Source of the DNA: Onthophagus taurus
Taxonomy: Eukaryota > Arthropoda > Insecta > Coleoptera > Scarabaeidae
Assembly: GCF_036711975.1 (NCBI RefSeq)
Contig: NW_027248940.1
Span: 1,364,001-1,428,000 of the forward strand
Direction: 5' to 3'
Length of the DNA: 64,000 bases
A model generated the notes under the pieces. That model searched no databases and was not told the DNA's origin. It was given only the letters and a program-made list of their open reading frames with translations. Made by a program: the position numbers and the translations under genes. This document shows, piece after piece, positions 15,945 through 60,109 of the stretch. Every line of letters begins with the position of its first letter. Position 1 is the stretch's first letter.

Positions 15945-16620
15945 TATACAGAGTTTCGTTTATTCTCTGCTTTATTTTGATAGCCAAATACTCGGCTATG
16001 ATGGAACCTGTGGTAAACGTGCTCCAATCCGTAGCTTTGAATGTAGTTAAGGCATCCCAGCACATAAGACGCCTTTTGGAATTTATAGAAAACCACCGTA
16101 AAGGTCCAGAAAACGTCACAAATGGAATTATTAGTGACGCTACTATCGTTGCAGAAAAACTTGGACTGGGAGGAGACATGAAGTCCTTGCCCCGTATTGT
16201 TGAGAGACAACTACATCAGAACAACCACCCAGCAGCAAGCCCCTCAGAATTCTGGCGGAGGTCTTTAATAATACCATACTTAGACTCGATTATTAATTCT
16301 TTTGAAGTTCACTTTTCTGAAGAAAACACCTCGTCAAATGTTGGACATGTCCCTTGAAGACCTCGTAGAAGCTGGTGAAGTCTTTTCCCAATTTTACAAT
16401 TTATCAAATATCAACAACGAAATTGAACTATGGAAAAAACTATGGCAAGATAAACCTGACTCAAAAGAATTAAGTGTTGTGCACTTTACCCTGCACGACA
16501 TATACTGTTGAACGATCTTTTAGCAGCTTGAGGACAAGAAAACCTGGCTTAGAAGCACTATGGCAGAATGTCGTCTCAATGGTCTTCCCATGATGAATGT
16601 GTATTTTTGAAGACTTTGAG
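15945..16620 (+). pseudogene. hAT-type transposase C-terminal remnant (hAT dimerisation region)
   Basis: Translations in shifting frames give a DUF4371/hAT-like block: an a-helical segment with HIRRLLEFIENHRK, then SLPRIVERQLHQNNHPAASP, SEFWRRSLIIPYLDSIINSF, and further down TVERSFSSLRTRK followed in another frame by STMAECRLNGLPMM. The ERSFS.LR.IKT and RL.GL.L signatures are the conserved C-terminal part of hAT transposases of the ZMYM/THAP12-like type. At least two frameshifts are needed between 16300 and 16560, so it is dead. It abuts satellite B. No terminal inverted repeats were identified. Confidence 0.8.
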
Positions 16621-17321: not shown

Positions 17322-18007
17322 TTAAAACCTTAAAAATACAACCAAACATAATATTAAGATGGTCGAGGCAGACAAAGAGATCGCATTTCCAGTGTAAGAT
17401 TGCCCACAAGCAGGTGGACAAATAGGCACTATCGATTCTATACGACATTAAAAAAAAATTAAAACATCAACAACTTCGATTTAAAAACAAATTCTCTACT
17501 TACCAAATAAATCAACTTCCGCTTCGGATCTCCCCAACTTATTCGTCGCCTTACAAACGTACTTTCCATATTGTTTCTTCTCAATGGTAATGACACGAAG
17601 CGTACTATCGGTGAATTCCTCAGCTGCACCAAAAGTTGAAACACTATAATGTTGATTCGATGATAATGCAACACCGTCTTTTAACCAAATAATCGATGGG
17701 AGCGGATACGCTTCGATGTGACACTCCATATCCATGTCGTATTGCAAGGCTTGACCAACGCGAGGTCTTGGGACGGTAACGACGGGGGGAAATTCAACTT
17801 CGACGTTCATGTTGCGACGGGTTCCTTTGCCAACGAGGTTTTCGGCGACGCAATAATAAGTGCCTCGATCTTCTTTTCGGACGCGCTTAATTTTTAACAC
17901 GTTTCCTCGGTAAATTGAACCACCCGTGGGGAGGATTGCGTTGTTCTCGCGACGCCAAGAGATTTTTGGGGTTGGGTAGCCGGATGCGTAACAATTTAAT
18001 TCCACAG
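17322..18007 (-). CDS. Lac: Lachesin, exons 3 and 4 (Ig domains 2-3 and GPI-anchor signal)
   Basis: Exon 3 is 17504-18007 and exon 4 is 17322-17437, separated by a 66-bp intron (GTAAGT donor, TAG acceptor). Exon 3 encodes Ig domain 2 (LNCYASGYP ... GTYYCVAEN) and Ig domain 3 (MECHIEAYPLPSIIWLKDG ... GKYVCKATNKLG), with a Cys pair in each. Exon 4, which has no start codon of its own, encodes VPICPPACGQ followed by a hydrophobic tail (STILILCLVVFLRF), as expected for Lachesin's cleaved GPI-anchor signal. Joined phase 1 to phase 1 with exons 1-2, the CDS is 1065 bp and encodes 354 residues, about the usual Lachesin length. Lachesin is a GPI-anchored homophilic adhesion protein of neurons and of septate junctions in trachea. 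Confidence 0.93.
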
Positions 18008-18049
18008 CTGTAACAAAAAAATACATTATTAAATATATGTATAATAAAG

Positions 18050-21000
18050 TAATGCTTTTGATCGATTAATTTCTGGTTATAGTTAACGTAACGATATTTA
18101 TCGATGAAAATTCGTTAAAAAAACATTTTTGATTTATTTGGGACTCTAACTTAGAGTTAACGCTCGATTAACGTTAGATTAGCTGTTTATTTTTTTAAGT
18201 CAACGACGCCTTTTGTTAATTAAGCTAATATAACGTTATTTACCGTTGAAATTCGTTAAACAGTTATAAAAACAACTTTCCATTGTTTGTGACGTTAGAT
18301 TACAGTTAACACTCGACTAACGCCTGATTAAGCGTTGATTAGCAGCGTTAATTTGTCGGTTATAGCTAACTTGATGCTATTTATCGATGAAAATTGGTTA
18401 AAAAGTTTTATAAAAACTATCTTTAATTTTTTTGGAACCTTAACATAGAGTTAAGGCTCGATTAACGCCAGAGTAAACGTTAATCAGCATTTGAATTTGA
18501 TTTTATAATGTCCATTTTGTTTCAATACGACACAAACACTTAGATAATACTCGTTTGATTAAGTATTGGTTAATTTATCGTTTATCAAAAAACTTACATC
18601 GATTAAATCTCGGTTAAAGCTAACGTGACCGTATTTTTCTATAAAGATTTATATAAAAACCACTTTCCATTCTTTGTGGCGCTAAATTAGAGTTAACGCT
18701 CGATTAACGCCAGATTAAGCGTTGATTAACAGCGTTAATTTGTCTTTATTAAAAACTCTAAGATGCTTTTGGTCGATTAAGTGTCGGTTATAGCTAACAT
18801 GATGCTATTTATCCATGAAAATACGTTAAAAAAATTGTATAAAAAGCATCTTTATTTTTTTTGAACCTTAACATAGAGTTAACGCTCGATTAACAACTCT
18901 CGGTTACAGCTAACATGATGGAATTTTTCGTTGAAGGTTTATATAAAAACCAGTTTCCATTCTTTGTGATGCTAAATTAGAGTTAACGCTCGATTAATGC
19001 CAGATTAAGCGTTAATTAGTCTTTATTACAAACTCTACGATGCCTTTGGTCGATTATAGCTAACATGATGCTTTTTATCGATGAAAATTCGTTAAAAAAA
19101 TTATATAAAAACCATCTTTAATTTTTTTGGAACCTTAACATAGAGTTAACGCTCGATTAACGCCAAATTTAGCGTTAATTAACATTCGAATTTGATTTTA
19201 TAATGCCCATTTTGTTTCAATACGACACAAACACTCAGATAATATTCGTTTGGTTAAGTATTGATTAATTTATGCTTTATCAAAAAACTTAGATCGATTA
19301 ACTCTCGGTTAAAGCTAACGTGACGGTACTTTTCGATGAAGACTTATATAAAAACCACTTTCCATTCTTTGTGACGCTAAATTAAAGTTCGATTAACGCC
19401 TGATTAAGCATTCATTTGTATTTATTAAAAACTCTACGATACCGTTGGTCGATTAAGTGTCGGTTATAGTTAACTTGATGCTATTTACCGATGAAATTTC
19501 ATTAAAAAAATTTTATAAAAACCATCTTTAATTTTTTTGGAACCTTAACATAGAGTTAACGCTCGATTAACTCCAGATTAAGCGTTAATTAGCATTCGAA
19601 TTTGATTTTATAATGCTTATTTTGTTTCAATACGATACAAACACTTAGATAATCTCGTTTGATTAAGTATTGGTTAATTTATCCTTTATCAAAAAACTTA
19701 GATTGATTAACTCTCGGTTAAAGCTAACGTGACGGTATTTTTCGATGACGATTTACATAAAAACCACTTTCCATTCTTTGTGACGCTAAATTAGAGTTAA
19801 CACTCGATTAACGCCAAATTAAGCGTTAATTTGTATTTATTAAAAATTCTACGATGCCTTTGGTCGATTAAGTGTCAGTTATAGCTAACATGATGCTATT
19901 TATCGATGAAAATTCGTTAAAAAATTTAATAAAAATCTTTAATTATTTTGAAACCTTAACATAGAGTTAACGCTCGATTAAAGCCAGATTAAGCATTTAT
20001 TAGCATTCGAATTTGATTTTATAATACCCATTTAGTTTCAATACGATACAAACACTTAGATAATATTCGTTTGATTGAGTATTGGTTAACTTATTCTTTA
20101 TCAAAAAACTTAGATCGATTAACTCTCGGTTAAAGCTAACTTGACGATATTTGTCGATGAAGATTATTTATATAAAAACCACTTTCCATTCTTTGTGACG
20201 CTAAATAAGAGTTAACACTCGATTAACGCCAGATTAAGCGTTAATTTGTATTTATTAAAAACTCTACGATGCCTTTGGTCGATTAAGTGTCGGTTATAGT
20301 TAACACTATGCTATTTATCGATGAAAATTCGTTAAAGAGATGTATAAAAACCATCTTTAATTTTTTTGGAACCTTAACGTAGAGTTAAAGCTCGATTGAC
20401 GACAAATTAAGCGTTAATTAGCATTCGCATTTGATTTTATAACGCCCATTTTGTTTCAATACGACACGAACACTTAGATAATACTCGTTTGATTAAGTAT
20501 TGGTTAATTTATCGTTTAACAAAAATCTTACATCGATTAACTCTCGGTTAAAGCTAACATGACCGTATTTTTCGATAAAGATTTATATAAAAACCACTTT
20601 CCATTCTTTGTGACGCTAAATTAGAGTTAACACTCGATTAGCGAAAGATTAAGCGTTGATTAACAGCGTTAATTTGTCTTTATTAAAAACTCTAAGATGC
20701 TTTTGGTCGATTAAGTGTCGGTTATAGCTAACATGATGCTATTTATCCATGAAAATACGTTAAAAAAATTGTATAAAAAGCATCTTTATTTTTTTTAACC
20801 TTAACATAGAGTTAACGCTCGATTAACGCCAGATTAAGCATTTATTAGCATTCGAATTTGATTTTATAATGCACATTTTGTTTCAATACGACACAAACAC
20901 TCAGATAATACCCGTTTGATTAAGTATTGGTTAATTTAATCTTTATCAAACAAATTTGATCGATTAACTCTCGGTTAAAGCTAACATGATGGAATTTTTC

Positions 21001-22310
21001 GTTGAAGGTTTATATAAAAACCACTTTCCATTCTTTGTGATGCTAAATTAGAGTTAACACTCGATTAACGCCAGATTAAGCATTAATTTGTATTTATTAA
21101 AAACTCTACGATGCCTTTGGTCGATTAAGTGTCGGTTATAGCTATTTATCGATGAAAATTCATTAAAAAAAATTTATAAAAACCATCTTTAATTTTTTTG
21201 GAACCTTAACATAGAGTTAACGCTCGATTAACTCCAGATTAAGCGTCAATTAGCATTCGAATTTGATTTTATAATGCTTATTTTGTTTCAATACGATACA
21301 AATACTTAGATAATCTCGTTTCATTAAGTATTGGTTAATTTATTCTTTGTCAAAAAACTTAGATCGATTAACTCTCGGTTAAAGCTAACGTGACGATATT
21401 TGTCGATGACGATTTATATAAAAACCACTTTCCATTCTTTGTGACGCTAAATTAGAGTTAACACTCGATTAACGCCAGATTAAGCGTTAATTTGTATTTA
21501 TTAAAAACTTTACGATGCCTTTGGTCGATTTAGTATCGGTTATAGCTAACATGATGCTATTTATCGAGGAAAATTTGTTAAAAAAATTTATAAAAACCAT
21601 ATTTAATTTTTTTGGAACCTTAACTAGAGTTAACGCTCGATTAACGCCAGATTAAGCGTTAATTAGCATTCGAATTTGACTTTATAATGCCCATTTTGTT
21701 TCAATACGACACAAACACTTAGATAACACTCGTTTGATTAAGTATTGGTTAATTTATCCTTTATCAAAAAACTTAGATCGATTAACTCTCGGTTAAAGCT
21801 AACACGACGGAATTTTTCGATGAAAATTTATATAAAAACCACTTTCCATTCTTTGTGACGCTAAATTAGAGTTAACACTCGTTTAACGCCAAATTAAGTT
21901 AATTTGTCATTATTAAAAACTCTACGATGCCTTTGGTCGATTAAGTGTCGGTTATAGCTAATATGATAGTATTTATCGATGAGAAGTCGTTAAAAAAATT
22001 TATAAAAACCATCTGTAATTTTTTTGGTACCGTAACCTAGAGTTAACGCTTGATTAACGCCAAATTAAGCGTTAATTTGTCTTTATTAAAAACTCTACGA
22101 TGCCTTTGGTCGATTAAGTGTCGGTTATAACTAACATGATGCTGTTTATCGATGAAAATTCGTTAAAAAAATTTGTAAAAACCACCTTTAATTTTTTTGG
22201 AACCTTAACGTAGAGTTAACGCTCGATCAACGCCAAATTAAGCGTTAATTAGAGTTAACAGTTAGATTAACGTTAGATTAAGCTATCAAACCATAATTGT
22301 GGGCAAAGCT
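18050..22310. repeat. Satellite C, about 420-bp higher-order unit, in the Lachesin intron
   Basis: CAATACGACACAAACACTTA recurs near 18520, 19217, 19636, 20035, 20456, 20885, 21290 and 21702, giving a unit of about 400-430 bp. Each unit contains two related blocks that both run from a GGTTATAGCTAAC/GGTTAAAGCTAAC box through TTATCGATGAA and TAAAAACCA to GAGTTAACGCTCGATTAACG. The TTAACG/CGTTAA hexamers give many small inverted repeats. Some units are shortened (near 18.9 and 22.0 kb). No gene is seen. Confidence 0.92.
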
Positions 22311-34150: not shown

Positions 34151-34583
34151 TTAAGACCGAATTAAGGATTTTCTTTATCCACCCTACTAGATAAGATTAA
34201 TTGGAAAAACAGAAATAGGAAATCATAATAGAGCAAAATTCATTCACTAACAATAAGTCAAAATATCTATGTTGTCGAGTTAGGGAGTTTTGGTCAATAC
34301 AGTTATTTTTAGTGTTAAGTGGTTGGTAATAATTAATCATACACTTTTGACTGCTTTTGACAATTAAGAAGAAAAGGTGGTTAAAAAGTAGTTAACAGTT
34401 TTTATCAATTAATTATTATTAAAAGAAGTTTATGCTTTATTTTAAATAAACTTTCTTTTGCCCCACAATTTGTTTGTTTAACAATCTAGATTAAAAGTAA
34501 ACTTAAAAATTGTGTCAATTTGACCCAAAGTCCAGATAAAGATTAAATCCTTGAAATATAAAAAGATTTACTTAAATACTTAC

Positions 34584-35107
34584 ATTGTCCTTCAGAAACA
34601 ATCACAGATCGAGTTGAGTTATCGCTAATAACCGGGGGCCTCCTCACCGATAACGAAACAGGCGCTGAAATCTTGTTATTAACAGATATAATAACTTGGC
34701 ACTGGTAAACAGCAGCATCAGTTTCTTGGATATCTTTAATTTGTAACGTATAGGTTGAGCTTCCTTGATCATGCCTGAGAGAAAATCGTGAATCATGAAC
34801 GATTAGGGTCGCCCCCGTTGAAATTGGAACGCCTTGACCCCCTCCGTTTTGATCTAATTTCATCCAAACCACCGGGTATTCATGCACGTATTGTACTGAA
34901 CATTGCATTTGAGCCGTACCCCCTATATCCACGATTACTTCTTGGGATATATATGATATCGTAGGAGATCTTTGTGACCATACTGTATAAAATAAAATTA
35001 AACAAAATTAAATCTTGATTAATGTTGATTTAAACGATAAGTTGAATTAGATTAAACTCACCTGGTGAAGATAAGATTAAAATCGTCGATAAAACCAGAT
35101 TAAACAT
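34584..35107 (-). CDS. Lac: Lachesin, exons 1 and 2 (signal peptide and Ig domain 1)
   Basis: Exon 1 (35062-35107) encodes the signal peptide MFNLVLSTILILSSP and ends in a GTGAGT donor. Exon 2 (34584-34982) follows a TACAG acceptor after a 79-bp intron and encodes the mature N-terminus (PTISYISQE) and Ig domain 1 with AQMQCSVQYVHEYPVVWMK and DAAVYQCQV, then the linker RRPPVISDNST. Its donor is GTAAGTA at 34577-34583. The split codon at the exon 2/3 junction gives SEGQS-VELNC, which continues the Lachesin sequence naturally across a 16.6-kb intron. Start chosen because the ATG directly precedes a signal peptide. Med31 starts 266 bp away on the opposite strand, so the two genes share a divergent promoter region (35108-35372). 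Confidence 0.92.
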
Positions 35108-35372: not shown

Positions 35373-35935
35373 ATGGCAGGTAAAGGTAAATCTGTGTTTA
35401 TCCATGAACTTTTTCCAATTTTTCCATTGAATTAGGCTGGAATTACATTGCAGGTGTCCCCGAAACCGACGACCAACAACGTTTACGCTTCCAAATCGAA
35501 TTAGAATTCGTACAATGCTTAGGGAACCCGAATTATTTAAATTGTAAGTCAACCTAACCTCAAAATACAAAACGATTTTCATTAAAAAAATCTTTTCTTT
35601 GCGTAGTTTTAGCCCAACGCGGTTATTTCAAAGACTCAACCTTCGTTAATTACCTAAAATATTTATTGTATTGGAAAGAACCGGATTACGCCAAATACTT
35701 AAAGTATCCAATGTGTTTATATTTTTTGGATTTATTACAATACGAGCACTTCCGAAGAGAATTAGTTAACTCGCAATGCACCAAATTCATCGACGACCAA
35801 CAAATCTTACTTTGGCAGCATTACACGCGGCGTAGAAGCCGATTATTACAAACTCCCAACGCTAACGGTGCTAATAATGAATCAAACGTACAAAATTCCC
35901 AAACAAACGGACATTTAAACCAAAAAATAACCTAA
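35373..35935 (+). CDS. MED31: Mediator complex subunit 31 (Med31/Soh1)
   Basis: Three exons: 35373-35379 (ATGGCAG only, donor GTAAAG), 35454-35543 (acceptor TTGCAG, donor GTAAGT) and 35607-35935 (acceptor CGTAG). The joined frame is 426 bp and gives 141 residues. The Med31 core is unmistakable: RLRFQIELEFVQCLGNPNYL, then NFLAQRGYFKDSTFVNYLKY, YWKEPDYAKYLKYPMCLYFL and DLLQYEHFRRELVN, with the FIDDQQILLWQHYTRRR helix, followed by a short Asn/Gln-rich tail. Med31 belongs to the Mediator middle module and acts in the nucleus in RNA polymerase II initiation. The 7-bp first exon was chosen because it restores a Met-Ala-Gly start and phase; an alternative acceptor (ATTAG at 35435) is possible. The last codons lie inside the first repeat of the array that follows. 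Confidence 0.93.
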
Positions 35936-38112
35936 TTATTGATATTTTTAAAGTAAATAAGAATTAAAATTTTTTTTTTTACGTTTAAGAGTGAGGTTAT
36001 GTTTGTTTGGGGCGAAAGATTGAGGTTATGTTTGGAATTAAATTAAAAACGTTTTTTTTTAAATGATTTTTATATTTTAATAAATAAATGATATATACAA
36101 AGGAATAAATAAGAAAGGTGTGTTTATTAATAAAATATAACCTAATTATTGATATTTTTAAATTAAATACAATAAAATAAGAATTAAAATGTTTTTGACG
36201 TTTAAGGGTGAGGTTATGTTTGGGATTAAATTAAAAACGTTTTTTTTAAATAATTTTTATATTTTAATAAATAGCTGATATACACAAAGGAATATACAAG
36301 AAAGGTGTATTTAATAATAAAAAATAACCTAATTATTGATATTTTTAAATTAAATAAGAATTACCTAAATTTTTTTTTACTTTTAAGAGTGAGGTCATGT
36401 TTGGGATTAAATTAAAAACTTTTTTTTTTAAATGATTTTTATATTTTAATAAATAAATGATATGTACAAAGGAATAAATAAGAAAGGTGTGTTTAATAAT
36501 AAAAAATACCCTAATTATTGATATTTTTAAATCAAATAAGAATTAAATTTTTTTTTCAGTTTAAGAGTGAGGTTATGTTTGGGATTAAATTAAAAACGTT
36601 TTTTTTTGAAATGATTTTTATATTTTAATAATTAAATGGTATATACAAAGCAATAAACAAGAAAGGTGTCTTTAATAATAAAAAATAACCTAATTATTGA
36701 TATTTTTAAATTGAATAACAATTAAATTTTTTTTTTACGTTTAAGAGTGAGGTTATGTTTGGGATTAAATTAAAAACGTTTTTTTCGAAATGATTTTTAT
36801 ATTTTAATAAATAAATGATATGTACAAAGGAATAAATAAGAAAGGTGTCTTTAATAATAAAAAATAACCTAATTATTGATATTTTTAAATTGAATAACAA
36901 TTAAATTTTTTTTTACGTTTAAGAGTGAGGTTATGTTTGGGATTAAATTAAAAACGTTTTTTTCGAAATGATTTTTATATTTTAATAAATAAATGATATG
37001 TACAAAGGAATAAATAAGAAAGGTGTGTTTAATAATAAAAAATAACTTAATTATTGATATTTTTAAATTAAATAAGAATTAAATTTTTTATTGACGTTTA
37101 AGAGTGAGGTTATGTTTGGGATTAAATTAAAAACGTTTTTTGATATGATTTTTATATTTTAATAAATAAATGATATGTACAAAGGAATAAATAAGAAAGG
37201 TGTGTTTAATAATAAAAAATAATTTAATTATTGATATTTTTAAATTAAATAAAAATTAAATTTTTTATTTGACGTTTAAGAGTGCGGTTATGTTTGGGAT
37301 TAAATTAAAAACGTTTTTTTTTAAATGATTTTTATATTTTAATAAATAAATGATATGTACAAAGGAATAAATAAGAAAGGTGTGTTTAATAATAAAAAAT
37401 AACCTAATTATTGATATTTTTAAATTAAATAAGAATTAATTTTTTTATTTGACGTTTAAGAGTGAGGTTATGTTTGGGATTAAATTAAAAACGTTTTTTT
37501 TTGAAATGATTTTTATATTTTAATAATTAAATGGTATATACAAAGCAATAAACAAGAAAGGTGTCTTTAATAATAAAAAATAACCTAATTATTGATATTT
37601 TTAAATTGAATAACAATTAAATTTTTTTTTTACGTTTAAGAGTGAGGTTATGTTTGGGATTAAATTAAAAACGTTTTTTTCGAAATGATTTTTATATTTT
37701 AATAAATAAATGATATGTACAAAGGAATAAATAAGAAAGGTGTCTTTAATAATAAAAAATAACCTAATTATTGATATTTTTAAATTGAATAACAATTAAA
37801 TTTTTTTTTTACGTTTAAGAGTGAGGTTATGTTTGGGATTAAATTAAAAACGTTTTTTTGAAATGATTTTTATATTTTAATAAATAAATGATATATACAA
37901 AAGAATAAATAAGAAAGGTGTGTTTAATAGTAAGAAATAACCTAATTATTGATATTTTTAAATTAAATAAGAATTAATTTTTTTATTTGACGTTTAAGAG
38001 TGAGGTTATGTTTGGGATTAAATTAAAAACGTTTTTTTTTTAATGATTTTTATATTTTAATAAATAAATGATATATACAAAAGAATAAATAAGAAAGGTG
38101 TTTTTAATAATC
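35922..38112. repeat. Satellite G: about 180-bp array between two convergent stop codons
   Basis: TTTAAGAGTGAGGTTATGTT recurs about every 175-180 bp (with one 215-bp step at the start) from 35985 to 37995, about 12 units. Each unit runs from AAAATAACCTAATTATTGAT through the TTTAAGAGTGAGG box, TTTTATATTTTAATAAATAA, and AAGAAAGGTGTGTTTAATAA. The first unit starts in the last codons of Med31 and the last unit ends at the stop codon of the minus-strand gene at 38104. A block of five units (about 36600-36900) is repeated almost identically 895 bp later (about 37495-37795). Confidence 0.95.
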
Positions 38113-38544
38113 GTAATCATCTCGGTCGAAATCGAGTCCTTCGTAATCGGAGTAATCAACCCCCGGTGGAACGAAAGCGCCGTTTAAAGCCTCAGAAATG
38201 GGTTCCCCTAATCCGATTCGAGTTGCTACACCGTAAATTAATCTCATTGCTACTAATCTATAAAGAAATTGAGTTTTAAGAAATTATTTTATTTATTTAA
38301 ATAAATTATAAATTCAAATTTGTTACCAACCCAAAACAAAAAAAATTTAATTTGTTTATTATATTTATTAATTAATTTATTTATTATTATCTTACCTTAC
38401 AAAATTAATAGCATTAGTTTCCCTTTTCTTCAAAATATTACTTAACCGTAACTTTTTTTTATTAATTTTGCGAGATTCGCACGAAAAAAGTGAGGTTAGA
38501 ATCACGAAAATCACCAGGATGAAAACGACTCGTTTACAAATCAT
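38104..38544 (-). CDS. Small secreted/membrane-anchored protein, 100 residues, two exons, unknown function
   Basis: Exon 1 is 38396-38544 and exon 2 is 38104-38257; the intron is 138 bp (GTAAGA donor, TATAG acceptor) and the joined CDS is 303 bp. The start MICKRVVFILVIFVILTSLF is a strong signal peptide or anchor, followed by SCES and a basic stretch (RKINKKKLRLSN). Exon 2 encodes LVAMRLIYGVATRIGLGEPI, then NGAFVPPGVDYSDYEGLDFD and an acidic Asp/Tyr-rich end (RDDYDY). The basic region after the signal and the acidic Tyr/Asp tail resemble a processed or secreted peptide precursor, but I do not recognise the family with confidence. It is divergent from SLX1 (481 bp between starts) and convergent with Med31. 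Confidence 0.75.
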
Positions 38545-39907: not shown

Positions 39908-40060
39908 GATTGTTGAAGCAATCAAACCGTGATTTATAAGCGGATTTAATAAAATTCCTAATCTTGTAAAGGACAATTTGAGTTTTAGTAACATCACCTA
40001 ATTGCTTTTTTAATCATTTGGTTTTAGAAATTTTGAAAATTTCCTATACTTAAACTTATT
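39908..40060. other. SLX1 3' flank before satellite D
   Basis: 153 bp of unique sequence with AATAAA at 39948-39953, a plausible SLX1 polyadenylation signal. Confidence 0.4.
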
Positions 40061-43000
40061 TCTTGGTATAAAGAATAGGTTTATGTCTCAGATTAAAGAT
40101 AAAATCTTCCTCTTTAAGATGATGTATCCCTTATTTGGTTTTATATAACATTCTTGGATATATCATTAAAAATTGGAAGTTTAAATTTTGACGTTTCTAA
40201 TAGTTATATAAATTAGCCTAATCTTAAAAAAATCATTCTAAACTAATTTCTTGGTGTAAAGAAGTGATTTATGTCTCAGATTAAAGATAAAATCTTCCTC
40301 TTTAAGGTGATGTATCCCTCATTTGGTTTCATATAACATTCTTGGAGATATCATTAAAAATTGGAAGCTTTAATTTTGACATTTCTAATAAATTCATCTA
40401 AATTAAGGTAAACTTAAAAAAATCGTTTTAAACTTATTTCTTGATATAAAGAAGTGATTTATGTTTCAGATTAAAGATAAAATCTTCCTCTTTAAGATGA
40501 TGTACTATACCTCATTTGGTTTTATATAACATTCTTAGAGATATCATTAAAAATTTCAAGCTTACATTTTGACGTTTCTAATAAATTTGTGAAAATTGAC
40601 ATAAATTTAAAAAATCATTCTAAACTTATTTCTTGGTGTAAAGAAGTGATTTATGTCTCAGATTAAAGATAAAATCTTCCTCTTTAAGATGATGTATCCC
40701 TCATTTGGTTTTATATAACATTCTTGGAGATATCATTAAAAATTGGAAGCTTAAAATTGACGTTTCTAATAAATTTATATAAATTACCGCAAACTTAAAA
40801 AAATCATTCTAAACTTATTTCTTGGTATAAAGAAGTGATTTATGCCTCAGATTAAAGATAAAATCTTCACCTTTAAGATGATGTATCCCTCATTTGGTTT
40901 TATATAACATTCTTGGAGATATCATTAAAAATTGGAAGCTCAAATTTTGACGTTTCTAATAAATTTATGTAAATTAACGTAAATTAAAAAAAACCATTCT
41001 AATCTTATTTCTTGGTGTAAAGAAGTGATTTATGTCTCAGATTAAAGATAAAATCTTCCTCTTTAAGATGATATATCCCTCATTTGGCTTTATATAACAT
41101 TCTTGGCTATTTTATCATTAAAAATTGCAAGCTGAAATTTTGATGTTTCTAATAAATTTGTGAAAATTGACGTAGGCTTAAAAAAATCATTCTAAACTTA
41201 TTTCTTGGTATAAAGAAGTGATTTATGCCTCAGATTAAAGATAAAATCTTCCCCTTTAAGATGATGTATCCCTCATTTGGTTTTATATAACATTCTTGGA
41301 GATATCATTAAAAATTGCAAGCTGAAATTTTGATGTTTCTAATAAATTTGTGAAAATTGACGTAAACTTAAAAAAATCATTCTAAACTTATTTCTTAGTA
41401 TAAAGTAGTGATTTATGTTTCAGATTAAAGATAAAATCTTCCTCTTTAAGGTGATGTATCCCTCATTTGGTTTCATATAACATTCTTGGAGATATCATTA
41501 AAAATTGGAAGCTTAAATTTTGACGTTTCTAATAAATTCATCTAAATTAAGGTAAATTTAAAAAAGTCATTCTAAACTTATTTCTTGATATAAAGAAGTG
41601 GTTTATGTCTCATATTAAAGATAAAATCTTCCTCTTTAAGATGATGTATCCCTCATTTGGTTTTATATAACATTCTTGGAGATATCATTAAAAATTGGAA
41701 GCTTAAATTTTGACGTTTCTAATAAATTTATGTAAATTAAGGTAAACTTAAAAAAATCATTCTAAACTTATTTCTTGGTATAAAAAAGTAGTTTATGCCT
41801 CAGATTCAAGATAAAATCTTCCTCTTTAAGATGATGTATCCCTCATTTGGTTTTATATAACATTCTTGGAGATATCATAAAAAATTGGAAGCTTAAATTT
41901 TGACGTTTCTAATAAATTTGTGAAAATTGACGTAAACTTAAAAAAATCATTCTGAACTTATTTCTTGGTATAAAGAAGTGATTTATGCCTCAAATTAAAG
42001 ATAAAATCTTCTTCTTTAAGATGATGTATCCCTCATTTGCTTTTATATAACATTCTTGGAGATATCATTAAAAATTGGAAGCTTAAATTTTGACGTTTCT
42101 AATAAATTCATCTAAATTAAGTAAACTTAAAAAAATCATTTTATACTTATTTCTTGGTATAAAAAAGTAATTTATGCCTCAGATTAAAGATAAAATCTTC
42201 CTCTTTAAAATGATGTATCCCTCATTTGGTTTTATATAATATTCTTGGAGATATCATTAAAAATTGGAAGCTTAAATTTTGACGTTTCTTATAAATTTAT
42301 GTAAATTAACGTAAATTTAAAAAAATGATTCTAAACTTATTTCTTGGTATAAAGAAGTGATTTATGACTCAGATTAAAGATAAAATCTTCCTCTTTAAGA
42401 TGAAGTAATCATCATTTGGTTTTATATAACATTCTTGGAGATATCATTAAAAATTGGAAGCTTAAAGTTTGACGTTTCTAATAAATTTATGTAAATTAAC
42501 GTAAATTTAAAAAAATCATTCTAAACTAATTTCTTGGTGTAAAGAAGTGATTTATGTTTCAGATTAAAGATAAAATCTTCCCCTTTAAGATGATGTATCC
42601 CTCATTTGGTTTTATATAACATTCTTGGAGATATCATTAAAAATTGGAAGCTTAAAATTTGACGTTTCTAATAAATTTATATAAATTAACCTAATCTTAA
42701 AAAAATCATTCTAAACTAATTTCTTGGTGTAAAGAAGTGATTTATGTCTCAGATTAAAGATAAAATCTTCCTCTTTAAGATGATGTATCCCTCATTTGGT
42801 TTTATAAATCATTCTTGGAGATATCATTAAAAATTGGAAGCTTAAATTTTGACGTTTCTAAGAAATTTATGTAAATTAACATAAATTTAAAAAAACTATT
42901 CTAAACTTATTTCTTGGTGTAAAGAAGTGATTTATGTCTCAGATTAAAGATAAAATCTTCCTCTTTAAGATGATGTATCCCTCATTTGGTTTTATATAAC

Positions 43001-46000
43001 ATTCTTGGAGATATCATTAAAAATTGGAAGCTTAAATTTTGACGTTTCTAATAAATTTATGTAAATTAACGTAAACTTAAAAAAATCATTCTAAACTTAT
43101 TTCTTGGTATAAAGAAGTGGTTTATGCCTCAGATTAAAGATAAAATCTTCCTCTTTAAGATGATGTATCTCTCATTTGGTTTTATATAACATTCTTGGAG
43201 ATAACATTAAAAATTGGAAGCTTAAATTTTGACGTTTCTAATAAATTTGTGAAAATTGACGTAAACTTAAAAAAATCATTCTAAACTTATTTCTTGGTAT
43301 AAATAAGTGATTTGTGCCTCAGATTAAAGATAAAATCTTCCTCTTTAAGATGATGTATCCCTCATTTGGTTTTACATAACATTCTTGGAGATATCATTAA
43401 AAATTGGAAGCTTAAATTTTGACGTTTCTAATAAATTTATATAAATTAACCTAATCTTAAAAAAATCATTCTAAACGAATTTCTTGGTGTAAAGAAGTGA
43501 TTTATGTCTCAGATTAAAGACAAAATCTTCCTCTTTAAGATGATGTATCCCTTATTTGGTTTTATATAACATTCTTGGAGATATCATTAAAAATTGGAAG
43601 CTTAAATTTTGACTTTTCTAATAAATTCATCTAAATTAAGGTAAACTTAAAAAATCATTCTAAACTTATTTCTTGGTATAAAGAAGTGATTTATGCCTCA
43701 AATTAAACATAAAATCTTCCTCTTTAAGATGATGTATCCCTCATTTGGTTTTATATAACATTCTTGGAGATATCATTAAAAAATGAAAGCTTAAATTTGA
43801 CGTTTCTAAGAAATTTTTGTTAATTACCGCAAACTTAAAAAAATCATTCTAAATTTATTTCTTGGTATAAATAAGTGATTTGTGCCTCAGATTAAAGATA
43901 AAATCTTCCTCTTTAAGATGATGTATCCCTCATTTGGTTTTATATAACATTCTTCGAGATATCATTAAAAATTGGAAGCTTAAATTTTGACGTTTCTAAT
44001 AAATTTATATAAATTAACCTAATCTTAAAAAAATCATTCTAAACTAATTTCTTGGTGTAAAGAAGTGATTTATGTCTCAAATTAAAGATAAAATCTTCCT
44101 CTTTAAGATGATGTATCCCTCATTTGGTTTTATATAACATTCTTGGAGATTGCATTAAAAATTGCAAGCTTAAATTTTGACATTTCTAATAAATTTATAT
44201 AAATTAACGTAAATTTAAAAAAATCATTCTAAATTTATTTCTTGGTATAAAGAAGTGATTTATGCCTCAGATTAAAGATAAAATCTTCCACTTTAAGATG
44301 ATGTATCCCTCATTTGGTTTTATATAACATTCTTGGAGATATCATTAAAAATTGGAAGCTTACGTTTTGACATTTCTAATAAATTTATGTAAATTATCGC
44401 AAACTTAAAAAAATCATTCTAAACTTATTTCTCGGTGTAAAGAAGTGATTTATGCCTCAGATTAAAGATAAAATCTTCCTCTTTAAGATGATGTATCCCT
44501 CATTTGGTTTTATATAATATTCTTGTATATCATTAAAAATTGGAAGCTTAAATTTTGACGTTTCTAATAAATTCATCTAAATTAAGGTAAACTTAAAAAA
44601 ATCATTCCAAACTTATTTCTTGGTGTAAAGAAGTGATTTATGTCTCAGATTAAAGATAAAATCTTCCTCTTTAAGATGATGTATCCCTTATTTGGTTTTA
44701 TATAACATTCTTGGAGATATCATTAAAAATTGGAAGCTTAAATTTTGACGTTTCTAATAAATTTATCTAAATTAACGTAAACTGAAAAAAAAATCATTCT
44801 AAACTTATTTCTTTGTATAAAGAAGTGATTTATGCCTCAGATTAAAGATAAAATCTTCATCTTTAAGACGATGTATCCCTCAATTGGGTTTATATAACAT
44901 TCTTGGAGATATCAGTAAAAATTGCAAGCTTAAATTTTGACGTTTCTAATAAATTTATAAATATAAATTAACGTAAATTTAAAAAATCATTCTAAATTTA
45001 TTTCTTGGTATAAAAAAGTGATTTATGTCTCAGATTAAAGATAAAATCTTGCTCTTTAAGATGATATATCCCTCATTTGGTTTTATATAACATTCTTGGA
45101 GATATCATTAAAAATTGGAAGTTTAAATTTTGACGTTTCTAATAAATTTATATAAATTACCGCAAACATAAAAAAATCATTCTAAACTTATTTCTTAGTA
45201 TCAAGAAGTGATTTATGTCTCAAATTAAAGATAAAATCTTCCTCTTTAAGATGATATATCCCTCATTTGGTTTTATATAACATTCTTGGAGATATCATTA
45301 AAAATTGCAAGCTGAAATTTTGACGTTTCTAATAAATTTGTGAAAATTGACGTAAATTTAAAAAAATCATTCTAAACTTATTTCTTGGTGTAAAGAAGTG
45401 ATTTATGCCTCAAATTAAACATAAAATCTTCCTTTTTAAGATGATGTATCCCTCATTTGGTTTCATATAACATTCTTGGAGATATCATTAAAAATTGGAA
45501 GCTTAAATTTTGACGTTTCTAATTAATTTCGGAAAATAGACGTAAACTTAAAAAAATTATTCTTAACTTATTTCTTAATATAAAGATGTGATTTATGCCT
45601 CAGATTAAACATAAAATCTTCCTCGTTAAGATGATGTATCCCTCATTTGGTTTTATATAACATTCTTGGAGATATCATTAAAAATTGCAAGCTGAAATTT
45701 TGACGTTTCTAATAAATTTGTGAAAATTGACGTAGACTTAAAAAAATCATTCTAAACTTATTTCTCGGTGTAAAGAAGTGATTTATGCCTCAGATTGAAG
45801 AAAAAAATCTTCCTCTTTAAGATGATGTATCCCTCAATTGGTTTTATACAACATTCTTGGAGATATCATTAAAAATTGGAAGTTTAAAATTTGACGTTTC
45901 TAATAAATTTATGTAAATTATCGCAAACTTAAAAAAATCATTCTAAACTTATTTCTTGGTATAAAGAAGTGATTTATGCCTCAGATTCAAGATAAAATCT

Positions 46001-46960
46001 TTCTCTTTAAGATGATGTATCCCTCATTTGGTTTTATATACCATTCTTCGAGATATCATTAAAAATTGCAAGCTGAAATTTTGACGTTTCTAATAAATTT
46101 ATGTAAATTAACGTAAACTTAAAAAAATCATTCTAAACTTATTTCTTGGTATAAAGAAGTGATTTATGTCTCAGATTAAATATAAAATCTTCCTCTTTAA
46201 GATGATGTATCCCTTATTTGGTTTTATATAACATTCTTGGAGATATCATTAAAAATTGGAAGCTTAAATTTTGACGTTTCTAATAAATTCATCTAAATTA
46301 AGGTAAACTTAAAAAATCATTCTAAACTTATTTCTTGGTATAAAGAAGTGATTTATGTCTCAAATTAAAGACAAAATCTTCCTCTTTAAGATGATGTATC
46401 TCTCATTTGGTTTTATATAATATTCTTGGAGATATCATTAAAAATTGGAAGCTTAAATTTTGACGTTTTTAAAAAATTTATGTATGTAAATTAAGGTAAA
46501 TTTAAAAAAATCATTCCAAACTTATTTCTTGGTGTAAAGAAGTGATTTATGTCTCAGATTAAAGACAAAATCTTCCTCTTTAAGATGATGTACTATACCT
46601 CATTTGGTTTTATATAACATTCTTGGAGATATCATTAAAAATTGCAAGCTTAAATTTTGACGTTTCTAATAAATTCATCTAAATTACCGCAAATTTTAAA
46701 AAATCGTTCTAGACTTACTTCTTAGCATAAAGATAAAATCTTTCTCTTTAAGATGGTGTATCCCTCATTTAGTTTTATATAACATTCTTGGAGATATCAT
46801 CGTATCTTAAATTTTGACGTTTCTAATAAATTATGAAATTAACTTAAACAAATCATTTTGAACTTATTTTTTGTTATAAATAAGTGGTTTATATCTTAGC
46901 TTAAAGCTAAAAGTTCCCTCTTTTTAGAGATATCATTTAAAAATTGGAAGTAATCAATAA
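40060..46960. repeat. Satellite D: about 188-bp monomer, about 36 copies
   Basis: The core CAGATTAAAGATAAAATCTT followed by CCTCTTTAAGATGATGTATC recurs about every 185-190 bp across 6.9 kb, with GGTTTTATATAACATTCTTG, GAGATATCATTAAAAATTGG and TTTTGACGTTTCTAATAAAT at fixed spacing. Copies are mostly more than 90% alike by eye and decay at the right end (46700-46960). The core AATCTTCCTCTTTAAGATG can fold as a small hairpin (ATCTT/AAGAT). No ORF of note. It lies between the convergent genes SLX1 and SNAP29. Confidence 0.97.
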
Positions 46961-48840: not shown

Positions 48841-49740
48841 ATTTTTAAACGTTTTTATTTCTTAATAATACTGGATGTAATAAAAATTTTAATTGTAATA
48901 AAAAAATTGATTTTTGAGGTTAAATTATTTTAATTTTATATTTTTCGGTTGGCATTTCTGATTGTCACTGTCACTAAACGTCATCTAACATAACCTCTTT
49001 TATTGTTTATCTTGTTTATTATTGTGTTTATTATTACAAATCATTTATAAATCAAGATTATTTTTATGAGGCTCCCAAAGAAATGGTTTCAATATTAATG
49101 TTAAATTTTTGTTAATTGTGCCGAATACTAGCTATATCCAAGGTTCTATGTTTTTATTTATACAGTGTATTTCACTTAAGAAGCAATATACAAAAATATA
49201 AAATAAAATTAAAAAATATTAAAATATAAAGCGAAATATTAAGGGTTATAATTTTATTATTGTTAGGTTATCCAACTTGACTCGGTTACCATGGTGATTA
49301 AGATCCAAATATTGCAGTTGCTTGTCAAAATTGAAATTGAATTTAAGTTTATTTAAGGAAAAAGTCTTATTTAATTGGTTTAAAAGGCTGTGTTTAATTC
49401 AAAATTGGTTTATCTAGGGTATGTTATAAACAAGGTAAGTGGATTAAATCAAAAAAAGATATTTTTAATTAGGTTAGAATTGATAAAAAAATCGGAATAA
49501 AATTTTATTATTTTAAGGTTATCCAACTTGACTCGGTTACCATGGTGATTAAAATCCAAATATTGCAGTTGCTTGTCAAAATTGACGTTGAATTTAAGTT
49601 TTTTTTAATGAAAAACACATAATTAATTGGATTTAAAGGTTGTACTTGATTCAAAATGGGGAAATGGATGAAATTATAAGTAAGGTAAGTGGACTAAATA
49701 AAAAAAAATAATTTTTAGATCAATTAAAATGTACAAGAAG
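48841..49740. repeat. AT-rich intergenic region with a 240-bp tandem duplication
   Basis: GGTTATCCAACTTGACTCGG followed by TTACCATGGTGATTAA and CCAAATATTGCAGTTGCTTG occurs at about 49265 and again at about 49507, two diverged copies of a block of about 240 bp. The rest (48841-49260) holds no gene that I can support. Confidence 0.7.
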
Positions 49741-49749
49741 TTAGGATTA

Positions 49750-50770
49750 AATAACAATTAGAACTAGAACTAACACTAGACCTATATAGAACTAGAAAGT
49801 TTTAGGTTTAGCCGGGCGTCTTAGACAAGTCGTTAAAAAAACTTTCAGTTGTCAGTATCAACTTTAATTTTATTATTATATTCGTAATTTTCATAAAATA
49901 ACCTTTAAAGTGAGTCCAAACTTGACGCATTTATCTCAAAAAACCAAAAAGTTCGAACTTCCAAGTTTTAATTTTGACATATTTGTCAAGTTCATAAAAA
50001 ATCCTTTAAAATGAGTCCAAACTCGACATATCTAACTTTAATATTAATGGAAATACAATCACTTCCGGTTTGAAACGTCAACGTCAATTTTGACATATTT
50101 GTCATCTTCATTAAAAAACCTTTAAAATGAATCCAAACATGACGCACTTATCTCAAAAATCAAAAAAGTTAGAATAAAAAACATTAAACCCGAAATTAGC
50201 AACAATGCAGATAGTAATTTAATTTTTAAATATTAATACCAACCTTAATTTTTTATTTTTTTATTATGTTTTTGTGACAAATATTAAGACATTTTATAAA
50301 AATTATGAATATGTCAAAATGACATTGACATTTCAAACCGGAAGTTGCTTATATCTCGATTAATATTGGAATTAAACGTATCATGTTTGGGCTCAGTTTA
50401 AAAGATTTTTGACGACAATTACAAATATGTCAAAATTGACGTTTGTTACCGAAAGATGACCATAACTTCATTAATATTGAAGATAAATATATCGTGTTTG
50501 TACTTATTTTAAAGGATTTTTAATGAAGATTACAAATATGTCAAAATTGAGGTTGACATTTTAAATCTGAAGTTAGTTATCATATAATAGACAAATGAAC
50601 AACTTCATGGTGTTTTTTCATGATGTATTCTTTATTAAAAAAAACATTAAAATGAGTCCGAACATGATGTTGTTAGATATCACTATGTTGTATATTTTTA
50701 TTGCACTAAAACTAGAACTAACACTAGACCTAGAACTAGAAAGGTTCTAGAATTTTTCTAGTTCTAGGTC
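49750..50770. repeat. Inverted repeat: arms about 49900-50160 and 50285-50660
   Basis: The left arm contains CACTTCCGGTTTGAAACGTC and ATTTTGACATATTTGTCA; the right arm contains the reverse complement (GACATTTCAAACCGGAAGTTG, preceded by GAATATGTCAAAATGAC). The blocks AAATGAGTCCAAAC and its inverse GTTTGGGCTCAGTTT also pair. The symmetric centre is near 50220. Both outer flanks carry ACTAGAACTAACACTAGACC (about 49757 and 50705). Probably a decayed non-autonomous element. Confidence 0.7.
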
Positions 50771-51600: not shown

Positions 51601-52500
51601 TTCAAAAATGTTCTTTACTTATTTCTAAAACATATTTAATAAGCGATTATATCCTATCGATCAGTTATACCAACCTAGATTAGTTGCAAAATGAATACTT
51701 GTAAAATTGAGTTTTTAACATAAAAATTGGAGATGTCTCAAGAATGAAAAGAGATGGGACAAAGTGATTAATGTAAAAAATGTTATTTATTAATGTCAAA
51801 AATGTATTTCATAATCGATTATCCCATAGATCAGTTATACCAACCTAAATTAGGTGAAAAATGAATCTTTGTAAAATTGAGTTTTTGACATAAAAATTGG
51901 AAATGTCTCAAGAATGAAAAGAGATGGGACAAAGTGATTAATATAAGAAATGTTCTTTATTAATGTCAAAAATGTATTTCATAATCGATTATATCCCATC
52001 GATCAGTTATACCAACCTAAATTAGTTGAAAAATTGCCTTTTTTGACATAAAAATTGGAGTTGTCTTAAGAATGAAAGGAGATGGGACAAAGTGATTAAT
52101 ATAAAAAATGTTGTTTATTAATGTCAAAATGTATTTCATAATCGATTATATCCCATAGATTAGTTATACCAACCTAAATTAGTAGAAAAATAAATATTTG
52201 AAAAATTGTATTTTTTTGACATAAAAATTGGAGTTGTCTTAAGAACGAAAAGAGATGGGACAAAGTGATTCAGATAAAAAATGTTCTTTATTGATCTCAA
52301 AAACATGTTTTATAAACGATTATATCCCATCGATCAGTTATACCAACCTAGATTAGTTGCAAAATGAATACTTGTAAAATTGAGTTTTTGACATAAAAAT
52401 TGGAGATGTCTCAAGAATGAAAAGAGATGGGACAAAATGATTAATATAAAAAATGTTCTTTATTTATGTCAAAAATGTATTTTATAAACGATTATATCCC
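51600..52500. repeat. Satellite F: about 170-bp unit, about five copies
   Basis: GAGATGGGACAAAGTGATTA recurs at about 51750, 51920, 52080, 52255 and 52425, with CGATTATATCCCATCGATCA and TATACCAACCTAAATTAGTT at fixed spacing. The array ends within 15 bp of the donor site of the orphan exon at 52516. Confidence 0.92.
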
Positions 52501-52515
52501 GTCGATATTGCTTAC

Positions 52516-52859: not shown

Positions 52860-54545
52860 TCTCTACACTTAACCTAAAATTAATAAAAATTTTAGATTAT
52901 TTAAATTATCGCTTTGAACGGATTATTAAGAGTTAGGAAACGATTTATATCTTAAATTAAAGCTGAAATTTTCCTCTTTAAGATGGTGTGTAATATTAAA
53001 TATCATTGATTATAAAAATGATGAGTAAAAAATTAAAACCTAAAATGCCAAATTTTAACTTAGCTTCAAATTAATAAAAATTTAAGATTTTTTAAATCAT
53101 CGCCTTGAGCGGATTATTAAGAGTTAGGAAACGATTTATATCTTAAATAAAAGCTGAAATCTTGCTCTTTAAGATGGTGTGTAATATTAAATATCATTGA
53201 TTATAAAAATGTTGAGTAAAGAATTCAAAACTAAAATGCCAATTTTTAAATGAACTTGAAATTAATCAAAATTTAAGATTTTTAAAATCATTGCCTTGAC
53301 CGGATTATTAAGAGTTAGGAAACGATTTATATCTTAAATTAAAGCTGAAATCTTCCTCTTTAAGATGGCGTGTAATATTAAATATGATCGATTATAAAAA
53401 TGATAAGTAAAAAATTAAAAACTAAAATTCCAATTTTTAAATTAACCTAAAATTAATATAAATTGAAGATTTTTCAAATCATCGTCTTGACCGGATTTTT
53501 AGGAGTTATGAAACGATTTATATCTTAAATTAAAGCTGAAATCTTCCTCTTTAAGATGGTGCGTAATATTAAATATCATTGATTATAAAAATGATGAATA
53601 AAAAATTAAAATCTAAAATGCCAAATTTTAACTTAGCTTAAAATCAATAAAAATTTAAGATTTTTTAAATCATTGCCTTGAGCGGATTATTAAGAGTTAG
53701 GAAACGATTTATATCTTAAATAAAAGCTGAAATCTTGCTCTTTAAGATGGTGTGTAATATTAAATATCATTGATTATAAAAATGTTGAGTAAATAATTAA
53801 AAACTAAAATGCCAATTTTTAACTTAACCTGAAATTAATAAAAATGTTAGATATTTTAAATCATCGCCTTGACCGGATTGTTAAGAGTTAGGAAACGATT
53901 TATATCTTAAATAATAGCTGAAATCTTCCTCTTTAAGATGGTGTGTAATATTAAATATCATTGATTATAAAAATGTTGAGTAAAAAATTAAAAACTAAAA
54001 TGCTAATTTTTAACTTGACATAAAATTAATAAAAATTGAAGATTTTTTAAATTATCACCTTGACCGGATTATTAAGAGTTACGAAACGATTTATATCTTA
54101 AATTAAAGCTGAAATCTTCCTCTATAAGATGGTGTGTAATATTAAATGTCATTGATTATAAAAATGTTGAGTAAAAAATTAAAAACTAAAATTCCAATTT
54201 TTAAATTAACCTAAAATTAATATAAATTGAAGATTTTTCAAATCATGGTCTTGACCGGATTATTAAGAGTTAGGAAACGATTTATATCTTAAATAAAAGC
54301 TGAAATCTTCCTCTTTAAGATGGTGTGTAATATGAAGTATCATTGAGTATAAAAATGTTGAGTAAAACATTAAAAACTAAAATGCCAATTTTTAACTTAA
54401 CCTGAAATTAATAAAAATGTTAGATATTTTAAATCATCGCCTTGACCGGATTATTAAGAGTTAGGAAACGATTTATATCTTAAATTAAAGCTGAAATCTT
54501 CCTCTTTAAGATGGTGTGTAATATGAATTATCATCGATTATAAAA
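52860..54545 (+). repeat. Satellite E, about 192-bp unit, forward orientation, about nine copies
   Basis: AAGAGTTAGGAAACGATTTA recurs at about 52929, 53111, 53304, 53495, 53690, 53884, 54075, 54265 and 54457, with TGAAATCTTCCTCTTTAAGA and TGGTGTGTAATATTAAATAT following. The CTTCCTCTTTAAGATG core and the preceding GATTTATATCTTAAATTAAA are shared with satellite D, so D and E are one superfamily. Confidence 0.95.
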
Positions 54546-54547
54546 AT

Positions 54548-54868
54548 GTTAATAATAATCTTTATTATGCTAATAATCCGAAGGCATACATTCGTCAATA
54601 TAAAATTTACAAGCAAGGCGAAAAATATAATAAAATATAATATATAAAATATTACACGTAACATTTACATAAAAGCAAATACACAGTCATAACAATCCAT
54701 GTCAGAACAGTAGTGACAGGGAAAGAAAGTTAATCTGTTCGTATACTAAACACATTCAAAGGCCTGTATATCATTCGACAATTCTTCAATAGAGTAACAT
54801 GCTTTACGCAATAAAACATCCTTAATCCTAGTTAGAAAAACTTTAAATGTTAAATTCCTGTAACTACT
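54548..54868 (-). mobile_element. LINE 3' end with ATT-type tail
   Basis: The minus strand encodes the last 40 or so residues of a non-LTR protein (FKVFLTRIKDVLLRKACYSI, then EELSNDIQAFECV and stop), a 3' UTR, and a tail TAATAAAGATTATTATTAAC at the satellite junction. CYSIEE...F resembles the ends of CR1/L2-like LINEs. Heavily 5' truncated. Confidence 0.65.
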
Positions 54869-56954: not shown

Positions 56955-57029
56955 AATTAATTGTTCAAATACAAATTTTGTTATATAACTTATTAATTAC
57001 TAACTTTAATAAACGATGTAAAATAAGTT

Positions 57030-60000
57030 TTTACTTAATATTTTTATAATCAATTATATTTAATATTACACACCATCTTAAAGAGGGAGGTTTCAGCTAT
57101 AATTTAAGATATAAATCGTTTCCTAATTCCTAAAAATCCGGTCAAGGCGTTGATTTAAAAAAACTTAAATTTCTCTCAATATCAGGTTAAGTGAAAAATT
57201 GGCATTTTAGTTTTTAATTTTTTACTCAACATTTTAATAATCAATGATATTTAATATTACACAGCATCTTAAAGAGGAAGATGTCAGCTTTATTTTGAGA
57301 TATAAATCGTTTCCTAACTCTTAATAATTCAGTTAAGGCGATGATTTAAAAAATCTTAAATTTTTATTAATTTTAGATTAAGTTAAAAATTGGCATTTTA
57401 GTTTTTAATTTTTTATTCAACATTTGTATAATCAATGATATTTAATATCACACACTATCTTAAAGAGGAAGATTTCAGCTTTAATTTAAGATATAAATCG
57501 TTTCCTAACTCCTCAAAATCCGGTCAAGGCGATGATTTAAAATATCTAACATTTTTATTAATTTCAGGTTATGTTAAAAATTGGCCTTTAAGTTTTTAAT
57601 GTTTTACTCAACATTTTTATACTCAATGATACTTCATATTACACACCATCTTAAAGAGGAAGATTTCAGCTTTAATTTAAGATATAAATCGTTTCCTAAC
57701 TCTTCAAAATCCGGTCAAGGCGATGATTTAAAATATCTAACATTTTTATTAATTTCAGGTTATGTTAAAAATTGGCATTTTAGTTTTTAATGTTTTATTC
57801 AACATTTTTATAATCAATGATATTTAATATCACACACCATCTTAAAGAGGAAGATTTCAGCTTTAATTTAAGATATAAATCGTTTCCTAACTCCTCAAAA
57901 TCCGGTCAAGGCGATGATTTAAAATATCTAACATTTTTATTAATTTCAGGTTATGTTAAAAATTGGCATTTTAGTTTTTAATTTTTTATTCAACATTTGT
58001 ATAATCAATGATATTTAATATCACACACTATCTTAAAGAGGAAGATTTCAGCTTTAATTTAAGATATAAATCGTTTCCTAACTCCTCAAAATCCGGTCAA
58101 GGCGATGATTTAAAATATCTAACATTTTTATTAATTTCAGGTTATGTTAAAAATTGGCCTTTAAGTTTTTAATGTTTTACTCAACATTTTTATACTCAAT
58201 GATACTTCATATTACACACCATCTTAAAGAGGAAGATTTCAGCTTTAATTTAAGATATAAATCGTTTCCTAACTCTTCAAAATCCGGTCAAGGCGATGAT
58301 TTAAAATATCTAACATTTTTATTAATTTCAGGTTATGTTAAAAATTGGCATTTTAGTTTTTAATGTTTTATTCAACATTTTTATAATCAATGATATTTAA
58401 TATCACACACCATCTTAAAGAGGAAGATTTCAGCTTTAATTTAAGATATAAATCGTTTCCTAACTCCTCAAAATCCGGTCAAGGCGATGATTTAAAATAT
58501 CTAACATTTTTATTAATTTCAGGTTATGTTAAAAATTGGCATTTTAGTTTTTAATGTTTTACTCAACATTTTTATAATCAATGATATTTCATATTACACA
58601 CCATCTTAAAGAGGAAGATTTCAGCTTTAATTTAAGATATAAATCATTTCCTAACTCCTAAAAATCCGGTCAAGGCGATGATTTAAAAAATCTAAAATTT
58701 TAAGTTAAGTTAAAAATGGGCATTTTAGTTTTTAATGTTTTACTCAACATTTTTATAATCAATGATATTTCATATTACACACCAGGAAGATTTCAGCTTT
58801 ATTTTGAGATATAAATCGTTTCCTAACTCTTAATAATCCGGTCAAGGCGATGATTTAAAAAATTTTAGATTTTTATTAATTTTAGATTATGTTAAAAATT
58901 AACATTTTAGTTTTTAATTATTTACTCAAAATTTTTATAATCAATGATATTTAATATTACACACCGTCTTAAAGAGGGAGATTTCAGCTTTAATTTAAGA
59001 TATAAATCGTTTCCTAATTCCTAAAAATCCGGTCAAGGCGTTGATTTAAAAAAACTTAAATTACTCTCAATATCACGTTAAGTTAAAAATTGGCATTTTA
59101 GTTTTTAATGTTTTACTCAACATTTGTATAATCAATGATATTTAATATCACACACCATCTTAAAGAGGAAGATTTCAGCTTTAATTTAAGATATAAATCG
59201 TTTCTTAACTCTTAATAATCCGGTTAAGGCGATGATTTAAAAAATCTTAGATTTTTATTAATTTTAAATTAAGTTAAAAATTGGCATTTTAGTTTTTAAT
59301 TTTTTACTCAACATTTGTATGATCAATGATATTTAATATCACAGACCATCTTAAAGAGGAAGATTTCAGCTTTAATTTGAGATATAAATCGTTTCCTAAC
59401 TCCTAAAAATCCGGTCAAGGCGATGATTTAAATAATCTTAAATTTTAAGTTAAGTTAAAAATTGGCCTTTTAGTTTTTTATGTTTTACTCAACATTTTTA
59501 TAATCAATTATATTTCATATTACGCACCATCTTAAAGAGGAAGATTTCAGCTTTAATTTAAGATATAAATCGTTTCTTAACTCTTAATAATCCGGTTAAG
59601 GCGATGATTTAAAAAATCTTAGATTTTTATTAATTTTAAATTAAGTTAAAAATTGGCATTTTAGTTTTTAATTTTTTACTCAACATTTGTATGATCAATG
59701 ATATTTAATATCACAGACCATCTTAAAGAGGAAGATTTCAGCTTTAATTTGAGATATAAATCGTTTCCTAACTCCTAAAAATCCGGTCAAGGCGATGATT
59801 TAAATAATCTTAAATTTTAAGTTAATTTAAAAATTGGCCTTTTAGTTTTTTATGTTTTACTCAACATTTTTATAATCAATGATATTTAATATCACACACC
59901 ATCTTAAAGAGGAAGATTTCAGGTTTAATTTAAGATATAAATCGTTTCCTAACTCTTAATAATCCGGTCAAGGCGATAATTTAAAAAATCTTAAATTTTT

Positions 60001-60070
60001 GTCAATTTTAAGTTAATTTAAAAATTGGCTTTCTAGTTTTTAAATTTTTGCTTAACATTTTTATAATCAA
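57030..60070 (-). repeat. Satellite E, about 190-bp unit, reverse orientation, about 16 copies
   Basis: CACACCATCTTAAAGAGGAA, AGATATAAATCGTTTCCTAA and CCGGTCAAGGCGATGATTTA recur about every 190 bp; these are reverse complements of the 52.86-54.54 kb array. A segment of 573 bp (three monomers) is duplicated almost exactly (57581 region and 58154 region), and a 371-bp segment near 59190 returns near 59560. The array starts 75 bp after the stop of the secreted-protein gene. Confidence 0.96.
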
Positions 60071-60109
60071 CAATATTTAATGTTATTGTCAATATTTATG
60101 TTTATTTTT

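Follow-up and report, generated by a model that had tools for sequence, protein, structure and literature searches.

A satellite DNA family in the usual sense comprises many copies in long arrays, often at several loci or in heterochromatin; satellites are, moreover, often too old to reveal the source of their first unit. Closer to the locus described here are the low-copy satellite DNAs of Tribolium castaneum, where 35 of 41 families have annotated genes within 5 kb, monomer lengths include 172 and 359-361 bp, and families are listed chromosome by chromosome, either as arrays of at least five repeats or as scattered ones (Grzan et al. 2023, PMC10218199). Satellite-like repeats beside or inside euchromatic genes are also documented as ‘TCAST-like’ elements, which derive from a major pericentromeric satellite and are proposed to have spread by transposition or a rolling-circle route (Brajkovic et al. 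2012, PMC3411249). For the birth of arrays, the cited portions of two reviews set out a ‘seed’ model, in which tandem duplication yields at least two monomers and non-reciprocal exchange then lengthens the array; the sources they name are transposable elements, rDNA intergenic spacers, micro- or minisatellites and older satellites (PMC12692304, PMC5615363).

The array analysed here lies in a window of 64,000 nucleotides (C15:1364001-1428000 of the host assembly, which holds 290.8 Mb in 33 contigs), where it separates the gene for Mediator subunit 31 (Med31) from a small gene that converges on it. It is like the Tribolium low-copy satellites in being a short array near genes, and like the TCAST-like elements in being a satellite-like repeat beside genes; unlike the former, it was found at one locus and its source sequence can still be recognised at both edges, and unlike the latter, no copies of its unit were found elsewhere. 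It resembles the seed model in its course—duplication, then exchange—and differs from the sources named in those portions in that its own appears to be an ordinary spacer between protein genes. With 12 copies, one locus and 2.2 kb, it falls short of a satellite family in the usual sense; it is a locus-specific tandem (minisatellite- or satellite-like) array, with several copies in the same orientation at one place within the limits of our searches, and so one more instance of a process already known rather than a novel type of system. Among publications judged by their titles we found none on an array of a whole convergent-gene spacer, and we do not claim that none exists.

Aligned unit by unit, the array resolves into 12 complete head-to-tail units in a single orientation, which fill positions 35922-38111 of the window. 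From the first unit to the last, these measure 210, 187, 182, 179, 179, 178, 177, 180, 181, 179, 178 and 180 bp (range 177-210 bp), with a consensus of 179 bp; pairwise identity over common columns averages 94.2% (89.7-100%), and the base composition is A 41.6, T 41.6, G 13.1 and C 3.8%. Tandem Repeats Finder (TRF) by itself reports 11.6 copies starting at 36016, probably because unit 1 (35922-36131, plus strand), which adjoins Med31 and contains its coding end, carries a private insertion of 29 bp. Chance can be excluded as the source of the likeness between units, all of which match a query unit at E 5e-52 or better in whole-genome searches. A sequence-only reading of this stretch had proposed an approximately 12-fold amplification between two convergent genes, with a unit running from stop codon to stop codon; the alignment bears this out, and more cleanly than had been claimed, in that all 12 units are full ones and each spans both stop codons and the 157-bp spacer between them.

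On the left of the array, the last exon of Med31 (35607-35935, plus strand; exon start placed by eye) ends with its stop codon at 35933-35935. The Pfam Med31 family (PF05669) matches the frame 35558-35935 at E=1.8e-26, and a genome search with the protein (E<=0.001) returned two matches, both exons at this locus; against prokaryote contigs there was one weak match, to a record from Paracoccus, with 47% identity over query residues 65-98 of 104. On the right, the convergent gene was spliced by eye from GT/AG borders and the fit of the reading frame, giving a product of 100 amino acids from two exons: exon 1 (38396-38544, minus strand) starts MICKRVVFILVIFVILTSLFSC..., which looks signal-peptide-like by eye, without a prediction program, and exon 2 (38104-38257, minus strand) ends ...VDYSDYEGLDFDRDDYDY-stop, with the stop codon at 38104-38106. 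In the host genome, its only matches at E<=0.001 are its own two exons; the protein matches no Pfam family at E<=1, and exon 2 has no match among viral contigs. Two NCBIfam matches at E=0.1, far below their cut-offs, we regard as chance.

Both genes reach into the array. Unit 1 opens with the final 14 coding nt of Med31 (codons K-I-T-stop plus 2 nt, since position 35922, where the unit starts, is the middle base of a CAA codon), and unit 12 (37932-38111, plus strand) closes with 8 nt from the coding end of the minus-strand gene, whose stop codon lies just inside the unit's final base at 38111. When the units are aligned to both flanking ends, as the sequence-only reading had suggested, the majority unit sequence equals both: the Med31 end matches at 14/14 positions in 7 of the 12 units and at 12-13/14 in the other 5, the minus-gene end at 8/8 in 10 units and 7/8 in 2, with reference units 1 and 12 counting themselves. 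Subtracting 14 and 8 nt from the 179-bp unit therefore gives an ancestral stop-to-stop spacer of 157 bp, whereas the present one measures 2168 bp.

We consider it very probable that the array arose by local tandem duplication of this whole convergent spacer, followed by exchange among the copies, restricted to the locus. The ancestor would have held Med31 and the small secreted-type gene facing each other in a single-copy state, their stop codons some 157 bp apart; a tandem duplication, its ends 14 nt and 8 nt inside the two coding ends, would have joined ...TTTAATAAT bluntly to AAAAAATAACC..., and unequal exchange or conversion among units would then, in that order of events, have carried the expansion to 12 with partial homogenisation. 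Neither gene is broken, because the outermost unit on its side still provides its proper end. With a spacer of 157 bp and a duplication of some 180 bp that covers it, coding ends are necessarily included; any tandem duplication spanning a short convergent spacer should leave both genes whole, and a special mechanism tied to stop codons would seem superfluous. The essentials of the earlier proposal, namely local amplification of the spacer, both gene ends within the unit and a whole-number copy count, are thus supported by the unit alignment and the genome searches.

The join itself can be read to the base. Inside the array, ...TTTAATAAT is joined to AAAAAATAACC..., with small variants, and the sequences outside are GACATTTAAACC on the left and CGTAATCATCTC on the right; at the breakpoints, there are 0 bp of microhomology and 0 bp inserted. 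Within 12 bp to either side of the breakpoints, 9 of 24 positions match, a level equalled or bettered by 23% of 20,000 random pairs drawn from the same two areas, 53% of which show 0 bp of microhomology. Joining through short A/T homology, as had been put forward from the letters, is therefore not supported, although later mutation could mask one or two bases of homology at the junction. Comparison of the two 20-bp flanks turned up no common word of 4 bp or longer, and hence no sign of a target-site duplication.

Growth after the first duplication has also left its mark, in the form of an exact repeat of 356 bp, two units long, whose copies (36559-36914 and 37454-37809, plus strand) lie 895 bp, or five units, apart. 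At this five-unit spacing mean identity is 95.8%, against 92.6-94.6% at other spacings; taken together, these two observations point to internal unequal exchange or conversion, the kind of homogenisation looked for in satellites. Divergence is greatest in unit 2 (36132-36318, plus strand), close to one edge, which has a 10-bp insertion and 9 private substitutions where the other units have 0-4. Saying this, unit 12 at the opposite edge has 3 and is not strikingly divergent, so that the pattern of edge divergence is one-sided, which counts against the explanation we favour. As a case of array birth the locus is a clean one: both ends of the source segment remain legible in the flanking genes, no microhomology is apparent at the primary junction, both overlapped gene ends are whole, and a two-unit block has been moved by later exchange. 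It offers a small, clear example of how satellite-like DNA may begin from ordinary single-copy sequence.

A length of about 180 bp is a common (nucleosomal) one for satellites, according to the part of PMC8122249 cited here, and, given the many arrays nearby, there are other ways to arrive at such an array. One would be the entry into the spacer of a pre-existing dispersed satellite or a repeat borne by a transposable element, with the gene ends overwritten or captured; a unit consensus equal to the gene ends would also be expected if these had been captured into a repeat, and the region is indeed full of dispersed tandem families (the 190-, 363- and 170-bp arrays described below). We nevertheless regard such an entry as very unlikely. 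One unit query (whole-genome DNA search, E<=0.001) gave 12 matches and a second (E<=10) the identical 12, all at this locus, in a search that skips very common words, so that AT-rich fragments elsewhere could escape it. Older copies of the unit dispersed in the genome, named in advance as the finding that would speak against local birth, were thus looked for with two queries and none turned up within those limits, within which we reject a dispersed origin. A transposon-borne array is likewise at odds with the lack of dispersed copies and of any target-site duplication in the 20-bp flanks, and replacement would have had to strike both gene ends simultaneously. Between 35000 and 39000, no RNA family matches at gathering scores.

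Local duplication of the spacer also leaves room for a different account of upkeep, with which it is compatible: that selection keeps the copies as putative poly(A)/termination modules, serving as a multi-site terminator or a buffer between converging transcripts. On the plus strand, AATAAA occurs in all 12 units (2-5 each, 42 in total), whereas the minus strand has 5 in the whole array, so that the suggestion that each unit carries AATAAA signals is true in part, and the units are not symmetric 3′ ends. In the consensus, read on the Med31 strand, there are AATAAA motifs from positions 127, 131 and 152 onward and a TGTGTTT from 167, just upstream of the other gene's stop codon as in a compact convergent pair. 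Treated as circular, the consensus has four AATAAA against 1.33 expected (P=0.035) and one TGTGTTT against 0.03 (P=0.029; 3000 dinucleotide shuffles), with none on the minus strand for AATAAA against 1.23 expected; these P values refer to a single ancestral sequence, with no correction for the six strand and motif tests made, which makes the enrichments weak. The GU-rich TGTGTT, however, is present in just 6 of the 12 units and so has not been kept in all copies, and unit 1 alone supplies Med31 with an AATAAA, the first of which lies 144 nt past the stop codon. The minus strand lacks such a module. Its gene meets ATTAAA at 43 and 60 nt and a first AATAAA at 117 nt. Column diversity is, furthermore, fairly even (0.042-0.069 across the six stretches measured along the unit), with no sign that the signals are conserved beyond the rest of it. 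Maintenance by selection accordingly strikes us as a very unlikely account, and we infer that expansion was neutral. The stronger proposition, that spacer and directional poly(A) module were multiplied together and kept as a putative repeated termination buffer, with 3′-end control as the array's first role, would be highly unlikely.

Least probable of all is that repeat assembly produced the copy number or the identical 356-bp tracts, for, suggestive as such tracts are, most unit pairs differ by about 4-10% and 8 of the 12 units carry private substitutions, so that most units are separate copies, and an artefact would not create the array itself.

The array has many neighbours. In the window, 27,426 of the 64,000 bases lie in arrays of at least 400 bp; the corresponding figures are 11,352 of 50,000 in a block of the same contig (C15:500001), 1,236, 2,712 and 0 in further blocks of 50,000 (C3:4000001, C7:9000001 and C11:15000001, respectively) and 0 in two additional 20-kb blocks; on this small sample the host is array-rich, unevenly so. 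Three of the four other window arrays that were searched proved to be dispersed. The 190-bp array at 40051-46733 has matches on at least six contigs, including a large block near C5:7.80-7.82 Mb; the 363-bp array at 3878-9255 on at least nine, mostly at 90-94% identity (40 scored of 2119 candidate places at first look); and the 170-bp array at 51604-52506 on at least seven. The arrays at 52867-54550 and 57029-60085 also have units of about 190 bp, and look like the array at 40051-46733 in period and in parts of the TRF consensus; the 363-bp satellite-like family is found at 1-1455 as well as at 3878-9255. Between 12080 and 13900, adjoining a 21-bp-based repeat array at 14067-15946, we see by eye a degraded reverse-transcriptase-like (LINE-type) sequence. 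Five exact TTAGG repeats gave only 3 overlapping matches, at one internal place (C3:12.2 Mb), with 11 for the reversed control; the assembly may lack the telomere repeat usual in insects.

Coding ends at array borders were surveyed for 18 of the 20 arrays of at least 400 bp, excluding two cut by the edges of the C15 block (1-1092 and 49211-50000 of that block) and including the cut array at window 1-1455; borders were read off TRF rows, a few of them joined manually, except for the array at 35922, where the unit alignment supplied them. An open frame of at least 50 amino acids ending toward the array within 80 bp was found at both borders in 4 of the 18 (those starting at window positions 14067, 35922, 51604 and 57029), and, among these four, a Pfam-supported gene, Med31, came to light only at 35922. 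At E<=0.01, Pfam gave no match for the two longer frames next to 57029 or for one of those next to 14067; the other frames at 14067, those at 51604 and the short one at 57029 may still be genes.

The fourth searched array, with a unit of 415 bp, is confined to its locus: all 11 matches at E<=1e-40 fall at window 18265-22252, and no frame of at least 50 amino acids ends toward it at its TRF borders. It is flanked by minus-strand immunoglobulin-domain-like exons at 17496-18065 (by eye) and 34543-35007 (by Pfam), and possibly lies in introns of one gene; satellite pieces are enriched near immunoglobulin-domain-like genes in Tribolium, according to the part of PMC3411249 cited here. In a comparison of seven flank frames with Pfam, one matched, to AP3D1; it lies next to a 173-bp array near C15:505.7 kb. 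This array, of 27.5 copies at C15:505685-510425, begins about 30 bp past the AP3D1-matching open frame and perhaps sits in an intron of that gene.
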